This document shows positions 2,546 through 5,580 of a stretch of 48,781 nt of DNA, one piece after another. The position numbers and the translations under genes were made by a program. A model generated the notes under the pieces. That model searched no databases. It was not told where the DNA came from and saw only the letters and a list, made by a program, of their open reading frames with translations. Every line of letters starts with the position of its first letter. The first letter of the stretch is position 1. The stretch comes from an uncultured Acidimicrobiales bacterium (lineage in GTDB: Bacteria > Actinomycetota > Acidimicrobiia > Acidimicrobiales > SHLQ01): assembly GCA_905479685.1 (NCBI GenBank), contig CAJQNJ010000109.1:1-48781 (forward strand). The letters are read 5' to 3'.

Positions 2546-3631
2546 TCATGTTGACGGTTCGAGCGACGCAGCGTACGCCTGCTGGTTTCTCGACATCCCC
2601 GTCAGATCGAACAATCCCGGGGATCCCGTGGCGGCCTCGGATTTGGGCACAAAGCCTAGTTCGATGCGGACATCGTCGATCGGCTGGCGAGCGAACTGGT
2701 GGTAGTTGACTTCGAGGAGGTCGGTTCGGAGCCGATCGCAGAGCACACGCCCTCGGTACATGGCGTCTGCAACCCGGGCGTGCATGGCCGGGCTCTCGAG
2801 GCGTGTCTCCTCGAGGTCGGAGCTGAAAAATCCAGCGTCGGCGATGTAACCGGTTTCGAACAAGCCAACGAGCGTCGCGATCCATGCGAAGCCTTTCGGG
2901 TCGGGGTCAGCCCGAGCAATAAGGGAGAAGACTTCCAACTCACCGTTGAGATTGGTGCCGTAGTCCGCGAGCACGTGCACGAAGTCGTGTTGAGCGAGGT
3001 AGGCCGACGCGCCCCCAATTGAGCCAGGTAGGCCGAATCCGCGCCCCCGATACATGTCCCACATGGCGCGGCCGAGTGTTCCTTCGGTCATGTGCTGGAA
3101 CTCTGCCCACGTCTCGGCAAGCTGGGAGTCCTCGACACCTGCGGCGAGCTGATGTTCGAGCTTCACCGTTGTCTTGAGCTGGTCCTTCTGGGCCATTTCC
3201 CAGTGTTCTGAAAACCCACTCTGGTGTAGATCAAGCCAAGCCAAACCGAATCCGCCCTGCGCGTACCGACGGGCAATTCGAACGAACTGATCGTCAATTC
3301 CCAACGCATCGGCGTAGGAGGAAACCCGACGGGCGACCGCGGGCGGGATGGGTCGAAGCACCAGTTCGCCGAGCACCATGTGGTGAACAACTCGACGACG
3401 GAACTCCTCCGAACGCCCCGATAGAGATGCGGATAGCTCGTCAGGCTCGAGCGGATCCAGCGAGCCGAGGTCGACCTCGATATTGAAGAGCGCGGCGATG
3501 ATGGAACCCATCAAGCCGGTCTGGATCGGCTCCATCCCGCTCTCGGGCTTCACCGCAGTCGCGATGCCGCGGGCGATCACAAGTGCCTCTTCGGCCGAGA
3601 CCGTTTCGTCGCTGGTGTCTTCACTCCTCAC
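2546..3631 (-). CDS. Coq4-like protein with HDxxH-x11-E metal motif
   Basis: 361 residues from a GTG at 3631, with GGAGGTGG about 10 nt upstream. Residues 215-231 hold H215-D216-x2-H219-x11-E231 in the context AYLAQHDFVHVLADYGT. This is the metal-binding signature of the COQ4 family, which acts on the ubiquinone head group (oxidative decarboxylation/hydroxylation in recent work). The protein is longer than typical COQ4 (about 220-270 aa), with an extra N-terminal region of about 100 residues. It follows the AhpD-hydrolase gene by 113 nt on the same strand. Actinobacteria use menaquinone, so a role in ubiquinone synthesis is unlikely. A related activity on another small aromatic or quinone-like molecule is my inference from the oxygenase and methyltransferase neighbours. 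Confidence 0.65.
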   Translation of the reverse strand: MRSEDTSDETVSAEEALVIARGIATAVKPESGMEPIQTGLMGSIIAALFNIEVDLGSLDPLEPDELSASLSGRSEEFRRRVVHHMVLGELVLRPIPPAVARRVSSYADALGIDDQFVRIARRYAQGGFGLAWLDLHQSGFSEHWEMAQKDQLKTTVKLEHQLAAGVEDSQLAETWAEFQHMTEGTLGRAMWDMYRGRGFGLPGSIGGASAYLAQHDFVHVLADYGTNLNGELEVFSLIARADPDPKGFAWIATLVGLFETGYIADAGFFSSDLEETRLESPAMHARVADAMYRGRVLCDRLRTDLLEVNYHQFARQPIDDVRIELGFVPKSEAATGSPGLFDLTGMSRNQQAYAASLEPST

Positions 3632-3744: not shown

Positions 3745-4863
3745 TCATGGACCTGCCTGTTCATTCCGCGTTGCGAGGCTGTCGAGAGTCTTGTTGGCGA
3801 TGAGGTCCGGTTGATCCACCGTCGGCCAGTGACTAGTGCCGTCGAGGATCGTGGTGGCGAGCTGATGTTCGCGCAGCCACTGGATCGAGTCTTCCGGAGT
3901 GTTGTCGGGGTTGTAGAAGTAGTGGACATGCTTGGCACACCGGGCGAGGACCTCACCGGGTGAATGTTCGATTGAGAAGTGGTGGGTGTCGCTGCCCATC
4001 TCCCATATTGAGGTGGGGTCGGCGATCGCTACCTGATCTCGGTACCGACGGATCACCTCGTCATCGACCGCTCTCTCTGACAAGCGGGACAGGAACGCCG
4101 CATGGAACATGTCCGGCGACTCGTACTGGGCAGCGGAACCCGAGAAGTACGCGTCGGCTGGCGTGAGGTTGCCCTCGATGGAGACTACGGTGTCGATCGA
4201 CGAGTCGGGTGTGCCGGCCGCAAGAGATGCGACGATCGAACCAACCGAGTGCGCAATGATTGTCCGTGCAGAAGTCTGGCGCACGACGTCGGCCACCAGC
4301 GCAGCAGCGCGGTCGAGCGTGAGCGGTTGGTCGAGCGGAGTGGACCCTCCCATGCCGGGAAGGTCGATGGCGTGCAACGCGAACCTGCGCCCGAGCGCTG
4401 TCGATCCGAGGAGTTCGAACATGCCACCGTGATCGGCGAACCCGGCTACGAGAACGATTGGCTCACCGTTTGGATCTCCGAAGCGCTGGACATTCAGAAC
4501 CGCGTTGTCAGGGCGAATCTGACGGCGACTGACCATGTCATCGACACCGATCTGGGTCCTGACCTCTGCGGTCTGGTCCATCCCTCCGCGTTCGATCGGG
4601 GTGCCAGTGCCGTCGGCGATGCGAGTCATCATGTGGAAGTTCGCACTCACTGCGACAGCGTCCACGAGGGAGTCACCACCCATCGCCTCGGTGACCTCGT
4701 CACGGACTGCAGCGAGCGCAGACGGGTCGCCCTCCCACATCGCTTCCGCGAGGCGAGCCAACAGTTGCCCGTGGGGCACGCCACCGTCACCGTCGCCCGT
4801 GCCGACAACGACATCGAACGACACTTGGGCATCCTGGCGTAGGCCGCTCAGACTGAGCAACAT
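3745..4863 (-). CDS. C-terminal segment: alpha/beta hydrolase (as normally called separately)
   Basis: This is the part that a standard gene caller would report, 372 residues from ATG 4863. Residues 1-100 have no hydrolase character. Stretches such as LAEAMWEGDPSALAAVRDEV and DAVAVSANFHMMTRIADG look like the end of a carboxymuconolactone decarboxylase/AhpD-type helical bundle, which supports continuity with the upstream frame. From about residue 130 the alpha/beta hydrolase fold begins: PIVLVAGFADHGGMF (oxyanion region), HAIDLPGMGGS, nucleophile elbow AHSVGS with Ser, and a late TSHWPTVDQP with the likely catalytic His. Substrate unknown. The ATG has no clear ribosome site and itself lies inside the SECIS-like region, which also argues against an independent start. 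Confidence 0.6.
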   Translation of the reverse strand: MLLSLSGLRQDAQVSFDVVVGTGDGDGGVPHGQLLARLAEAMWEGDPSALAAVRDEVTEAMGGDSLVDAVAVSANFHMMTRIADGTGTPIERGGMDQTAEVRTQIGVDDMVSRRQIRPDNAVLNVQRFGDPNGEPIVLVAGFADHGGMFELLGSTALGRRFALHAIDLPGMGGSTPLDQPLTLDRAAALVADVVRQTSARTIIAHSVGSIVASLAAGTPDSSIDTVVSIEGNLTPADAYFSGSAAQYESPDMFHAAFLSRLSERAVDDEVIRRYRDQVAIADPTSIWEMGSDTHHFSIEHSPGEVLARCAKHVHYFYNPDNTPEDSIQWLREHQLATTILDGTSHWPTVDQPDLIANKTLDSLATRNEQAGP

Positions 4864-5580
4864 CGAATGACTCGTCGTTCAATAGAAGCACTCGTTCAGT
4901 TTCGAGGTGCGCGCTGCCACGAGCTCGACCTGCATTCGGGTGAGGGCGTTTCGGTCGGCCGTCAGATCGTAGAGCTGTGAAACTGGGAGGTAGTGGGCAG
5001 CGGCCAACTGGAACGAAGCGGCATGCTCGGCAGGCACGCCGCTCAGTGCCTTGACGACCTCTCTCACGTCACTCTCGACAGTGGGCACCCAGTGGTCGCG
5101 CGAGGCAACGCCATCGGGCGCGGAGCGACTTGGCTCACCTTCGACTGGCTGGGGAAGCGTCGGTCGGTCGAGGGACAGTCCGTCCGCGAATCGGTCGATG
5201 CAGTTCGCCTGGGCGACGAGCGCTACGAGTTCGGTGTACTCCAAAGGAGTGAGCGCAGCCGAGTGATCACCGAAGCCGTCGACCACCTTGTTGTACCAGT
5301 CAGCCGTCAGAGTTCCTGGGTGGTTGGTCAACCGCCAGATCGCGTCGACTGCTGCTGCGGGAAGCGCATGAGCGTGCAAATCTGGTCTCTCGACCTCGGA
5401 CGCGCGCACCCACGGCGGCGGGATCTCATCGGCGTCGCGAGCTCGTCGGACCTCGGTGACGATTGCGAGACGCTGCTCACCGGTCCACCAGGTCCCAGGG
5501 CGAGACCAACCAAGGACAGTGGCCTCCTGAGCGGCCCGCAAGTCGTCGCGGATCGGCAGCTCTGTTTCGTAGATGTCCAT
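3745..5580 (-). CDS. Candidate selenoprotein: AhpD-like domain fused to alpha/beta hydrolase, in-frame TGA at 4879-4881
   Basis: Read through TGA, this is one frame of 611 residues. Residues up to 233 end ...KLNECFY; the TGA is residue 234; then TTSHSM continues in the same frame. With Sec at 234 the sequence shows E219-x11-C231-x2-U234-x3-H238. The spacing is identical to the AhpD active site (Glu118, Cys130, Cys133, His137 in M. tuberculosis AhpD). Sequence after the TGA first continues an AhpD/CMD-like helical region (about residues 240-330), then an alpha/beta hydrolase fold with nucleophile motif HSVGS. A SECIS-like hairpin lies at 4843-4861. AhpD-like selenoproteins are known from marine metagenomes; a fusion to a hydrolase is new to me. 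The alternative is two genes separated by 15 nt, but that would cut the redox motif in half. Confidence 0.7.
4843..4861 (-). promoter_or_regulatory. Putative bacterial SECIS hairpin
   Basis: On the minus-strand mRNA, GUUGCUCA (4861-4854), loop GUC (4853-4851) and UGAGCGGC (4850-4843) form an 8-bp stem with two inner U-G wobble pairs. The loop starts with G and begins 25 nt after the UGA (4881-4879). Known bacterial SECIS elements need a short stem-loop roughly 16-37 nt downstream of UGA with a G in the first two loop positions; both conditions are met. The hairpin lies inside the coding sequence, as is normal in bacteria, where SelB binds it. Confidence 0.6.
4879..5580 (-). CDS. N-terminal segment: AhpD/carboxymuconolactone decarboxylase-like (as normally called separately)
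   Basis: 233 residues from ATG 5580 to the TGA at 4879-4881. The middle (about residues 70-135) has an AhpD-like helical hairpin with LTPLEYTELVALVAQANCIDRFADG. The end has QVELVAARTSKLNECFY, which is the start of a second AhpD half carrying the proton-relay Glu219 and the resolving-type Cys231. The chain then stops just where CxxC would be completed, which is unusual for a genuine C-terminus. AhpD proteins use this pair as peroxide/disulfide redox centre. The gene starts 30 nt after the methyltransferase gene on the same strand, so it is in the operon. Confidence 0.6.
   Translation of the reverse strand: MDIYETELPIRDDLRAAQEATVLGWSRPGTWWTGEQRLAIVTEVRRARDADEIPPPWVRASEVERPDLHAHALPAAAVDAIWRLTNHPGTLTADWYNKVVDGFGDHSAALTPLEYTELVALVAQANCIDRFADGLSLDRPTLPQPVEGEPSRSAPDGVASRDHWVPTVESDVREVVKALSGVPAEHAASFQLAAAHYLPVSQLYDLTADRNALTRMQVELVAARTSKLNECFY

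Follow-up and report, generated by a model that had tools for sequence, protein, structure and literature searches.

A predicted AhpD-related selenoprotein that continues in frame into an alpha/beta hydrolase in an Acidimicrobiales genome

On the minus strand of the window (i.e., the whole 48,781-nucleotide stretch of DNA that was analysed), the open reading frames at positions 4879-5580 (233 aa) and 3745-4863 (372 aa) are in the same phase and are separated by a single TGA, which raises the question of whether they are two genes or one gene in which this TGA is read as selenocysteine (Sec). Five sense codons lie between the TGA at 4879-4881 and the ATG at 4863. When the TGA is read as U, a single frame of 611 residues results, which starts with M1 at 5580, ends at the terminal TGA at 3745-3747 and contains the sequence E219-x11-C231-F-Y-U234-T-T-S-H238 with the spacing of the AhpD active site (Table 1). 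The coordinates, the common phase and the number of intervening codons agree with those given in a preliminary description of this locus, and the E-x11-C-x2-C-x3-H spacing that it had noticed across the TGA is found as E219, C231, U234 and H238 in the read-through frame. The G+C content by codon position is constant over the entire 611-residue frame, including the hydrolase part. We consider it highly probable (approximately 0.9) that the locus is one selenoprotein gene, in which SelB and tRNA-Sec insert Sec at position 234 of a protein of the NCBIfam family NF041238 and to which a separate hydrolase gene has been joined in frame.

Table 1. Positions in the window of the features predicted for the selenoprotein gene
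Feature	Position	Strand	Remarks
Complete coding region, 611-residue predicted selenoprotein	3745..5580	-	Internal TGA read as Sec; terminal TGA stop at 3745-3747; start codon position matches homologues
AhpD-related (seleno)protein domain NF041238, residues 10-349	4534..5553	-	341.7 bits; high-confidence AlphaFold2 region; AhpD fold matches in PDB
Active-site motif E219-x11-C231-F-Y-U234-x3-H238	4867..4926	-	No variation at E219, C231, residue 234 or H238 among 29 homologues
In-frame UGA, codon 234, predicted Sec	4879..4881	-	Kept in ~40 homologues; Cys in the G250, G165 and G094 homologues
Bacterial SECIS-type hairpin	4843..4861	-	7-bp stem (4855-4861 with 4843-4849); 5-nt loop AGUCU including conserved G
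C-terminal alpha/beta hydrolase, ~residues 362-604	3748..4500	-	Pfam Abhydrolase_6; directly after the usual AhpD C-terminus

The N-terminal part of the predicted protein matched the NCBIfam model NF041238 (AhpD_rel_CFYUT, "alkylhydroperoxidase-related (seleno)protein") with 341.7 bits, compared to a cut-off of 175, over positions 1-355 of the 357 in the profile, and the CFYU motif lies at residues 231-234. By its sequence, the selenoprotein part is therefore a further member of a catalogued family, and the novelty implied for it in the preliminary description is not supported, given that the model is already named for the CFYUT motif and that the family is in the literature. NF041238 is entered in a published list as "AhpD-related protein (hypothetical protein 1, Sargasso Sea metagenome)," a selenoprotein with the motif CxxU (PMC13188914). 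The 2005 report on the Sargasso Sea selenoproteome described the hypothetical protein 1 family with a bacterial SECIS (PMC1088965). The preliminary description had remarked that AhpD-like selenoproteins were reported from marine metagenomes. Among the papers available to us, none dealt with CFYUT or with Acidimicrobiia selenoproteins. In the AlphaFold2 model, residues 1-350 are mostly of high confidence, while the hydrolase half is of low confidence. AhpD-type proteins were the best PDB fold matches by Foldseek (probability 1.00 but E-value of only ~0.02), with Sestrin2 lower down; the weak E-values are probably due to the poorly modelled hydrolase half in the query. The fold and the motif together suggest an AhpD-type thiol/selenol peroxidase or reductase activity of C231-x2-U234 with E219 and H238.

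Relatives with identities of 50-71% align through the TGA without a break over residues 1-353 and have a TGA at the same codon. Judged from this homology, which is unbroken across the TGA, the joined frame is not a product of chance. Within the order, 60 of the 298 genomes analysed yielded a homologue, and nearly all of the matches contain one TGA. Among the ~40 homologues whose loci were inspected closely, the TGA is kept at the active site with the motif CFYU or near variants thereof, and neither TAA nor TAG was ever seen in its place in these loci from many genomes. Three distant homologues (i.e., those of genome G250, G165:C69 and G094:C434) read CFYC in unbroken frames, so that Cys replaces the TGA, as the preliminary description had proposed to look for. 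Its doubt that a truncated AhpD half followed by a hydrolase could be two genes is supported, as the AhpD homology continues across the TGA and relatives keep this codon. Separately, we noticed that a relative in genome G239 and the record CALGZB010000281 lack two bases just before the TGA, which shifts the frame at the active site; this loss may reflect a pseudogene, an error or one assembly occurring twice.

Just 3' of the TGA, RNAalifold applied to the 54 nt starting with this codon in 27 homologues predicted one hairpin de novo, at columns 21-27/33-39. In the same alignment, the hairpin is paired in 96% of the cells, has both sides changed at two pairs and outscores the slid registers, and its apical loop occupies nt 28-32, counting from the U of UGA. 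The hairpin of the window itself has a folding energy of -8.5 kcal/mol alone and includes two G-U pairs. It should be noted that the 54-nt stretch of the window has a minimum-energy fold other than the conserved hairpin (-13.0 vs. -8.9 kcal/mol for the hairpin) and that the conservation of the hairpin could partly result from constraint on the protein, because it overlaps conserved codons.

The preliminary description had also proposed a search for selA, selB, selD and tRNA-Sec. In the source genome, selA and selB are adjacent on one contig, and a tRNA-Sec with the anticodon TCA (UCA tRNA; 65.1 bits) was found by both Rfam and ARAGORN at C6:92560-92651. The one component not found in the source assembly (85% complete) is selD; on the contig with selA and selB, inspection by eye of the sequence upstream of selA did not reveal it either. 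The simplest reading is an assembly gap, because all 20 relatives tested have selD. In 17 of these 20 relatives, selD carries an in-frame TGA of its own, and its sequence suggests that SelD is probably itself a selenoprotein in this group. Across the genomes analysed, selA is present in 58 of the 60 with a homologue of the window protein, compared to 121 of the 238 without one (Fisher p ~7e-13, with the relatedness of the genomes ignored). The two homologue-containing genomes in which selA was not found are G250, where this is expected because its homologue is the Cys form, and G170, which is 83% complete. Further AhpD-type genes with in-frame TGA are found in the source genome on contigs C6, C8 and C201. 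One of them, at C6:18108-18974 and on the same contig as tRNA-Sec, is a second NF041238 gene with CFYU, while that at C8:2130-2687 encodes a shorter AhpD-type protein with the in-frame TGA in a C-D-Y-U context, whose product, on this sequence, is likely another selenoprotein.

All full-length relatives that were read have lengths of 331-390 residues and end soon after the region corresponding to residues 340-352 of the window protein, while the window protein runs ~255 residues past this usual AhpD end as a hydrolase. This part matched Pfam Abhydrolase_6 (PF12697) with 52.7 bits, compared to a cut-off of 26.3 (E-value 1.2e-13); no closer named family scored over its cut-off, and a comparison with PDB sequences gave no match at 1e-6. 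S445 (in the nucleophile elbow AHSVG) and His584 are invariant in four sequences, and S445 is likely the nucleophile, acting with His584. The nearest hydrolase homologue (59% identity) is a stand-alone gene in genome G856, which belongs to another family of the class; the gene upstream of it resembles a photolyase, judging by the sequence, and the search of this contig gave no AhpD homologue. In G239, a partial hydrolase homologue is encoded on a contig other than that of the AhpD relative. The fusion itself was found in the source genome only, i.e., in no other relative examined, and the fused protein had no match in a plasmid collection. Of the 611-residue fusion product put forward in the preliminary description, the continuous frame stands and its reading with Sec is supported; an "AhpD-hydrolase selenoprotein," however, is not a family, with the fusion found in one genome. 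To us it looks like an end-to-end gene fusion within one lineage. The neighbouring genes (i.e., those for a methyltransferase, a 2OG oxygenase, a LuxR regulator and others) are not shared among the relatives compared, and the genomic context therefore yields no function. Downstream, at 2546-3631 of the minus strand, the window encodes a 361-residue protein with only a weak match to Coq4, which was not found beside the homologue in the relatives compared.

That the locus comprises two separate genes, the first for a truncated AhpD half that terminates at the TGA, the second for a hydrolase initiated from the ATG at 4863, is what purely mechanical calling of open reading frames yields. Such an arrangement would, however, cut an AhpD fold and an active site that are conserved across the TGA, and it is at odds with the retention of the TGA in relatives, with the single frame of the Cys versions and with the presence of both a SECIS-type hairpin and Sec machinery, so we regard it as very unlikely. 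The origin of the TGA from a pseudogene or a sequencing error could draw on the apparent 2-nt deletion just before the TGA in the G239 relative, which shows that the family is not free of decay or errors; it is refuted by conservation across genomes, with the same TGA in the ~40 homologous loci and never TAA or TAG where read, and retains next to no probability.

The hydrolase part leaves more room for doubt, in that the selenoprotein may be real and the fusion either a chimera produced by assembly or the result of a recent rearrangement, private to this genome, that brought two unrelated genes together. The fusion is confined to one metagenome-assembled genome of 246 contigs with 4.5% contamination, recurs in no other relative examined and has its closest hydrolase homologue in a genome from another family within the class, all of which would fit such an origin. 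The join, however, is in frame at the AhpD C-terminus (SRR, followed by the hydrolase) with no stop, and the codon-position composition is steady over it, which a random misjoin would rarely give. Given that the two parts meet in frame where a domain naturally ends, we regard misassembly as the less likely explanation, and overall we consider a chimera or private rearrangement improbable.

For the preferred reading of one selenoprotein gene fused to a hydrolase gene, we propose that SelB and charged tRNA-Sec(UCA), guided by the hairpin just 3' of the UGA, would insert Sec at position 234. The product would be an AhpD-related redox protein, in which U234 and C231, together with E219 and H238, may carry out AhpD-type thiol-selenol chemistry. 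The usual stop at the AhpD end would have been lost in this lineage and a formerly free alpha/beta-hydrolase gene fused in frame, placing two catalytic parts in one chain, possibly acting on related substrates, with the hydrolase chemistry presumably proceeding through S445 and His584. If selenium were lacking, ribosomes initiating at M1 would release a 233-residue chain with no AhpD site and no hydrolase. Whether Sec insertion thereby governs production of the hydrolase, with hydrolysis and selenol redox chemistry coupled in one chain of a selenium-dependent bifunctional enzyme, is a more tentative idea that we would not favour at present.

The selenoprotein itself adds one more member to a known family; what is new is the hydrolase fusion, so far in a single genome. 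The locus also illustrates how, with standard calling of open reading frames, a selenoprotein is reported as a truncated enzyme plus a hydrolase with a false start. Domains joined in one chain frequently serve the same pathway, so this fusion might offer a clue to the substrate of NF041238 proteins.

Among known systems, the PcaDC enol-lactonase/carboxymuconolactone decarboxylase (NF051488) likewise has an alpha/beta hydrolase joined to a domain of the CMD/AhpD type, but the match of the window protein to this model is weak and far below its cut-off. The domain order of PcaDC, going by its name, would be hydrolase-first, and we know of no Sec in PcaDC. AhpD and the uncharacterized peroxidase-related proteins (TIGR00778 and TIGR01926; PDB 2prr and 6k40) share with the window protein the E-x11-C-x2-C/U-x3-H site and the AhpD helical fold, but their solved chains have ~180-190 residues, while the window protein has an extra N-terminal part and the hydrolase. 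Classical AhpD members are generally known to use Cys, not Sec. The Sargasso Sea hypothetical protein 1 resembles the window protein in its CxxU motif and bacterial SECIS and is equated with NF041238, while a hydrolase fusion is not described in the available text of these sources (PMC1088965; PMC13188914). The likeness to NF041238 itself is the closest in extent, with residues 10-349 of the window protein covering 355 of the 357 profile positions and including the CFYUT motif; the members examined stop at 331-390 residues, a length that is typical rather than a curated criterion, whereas the window protein continues into the hydrolase.
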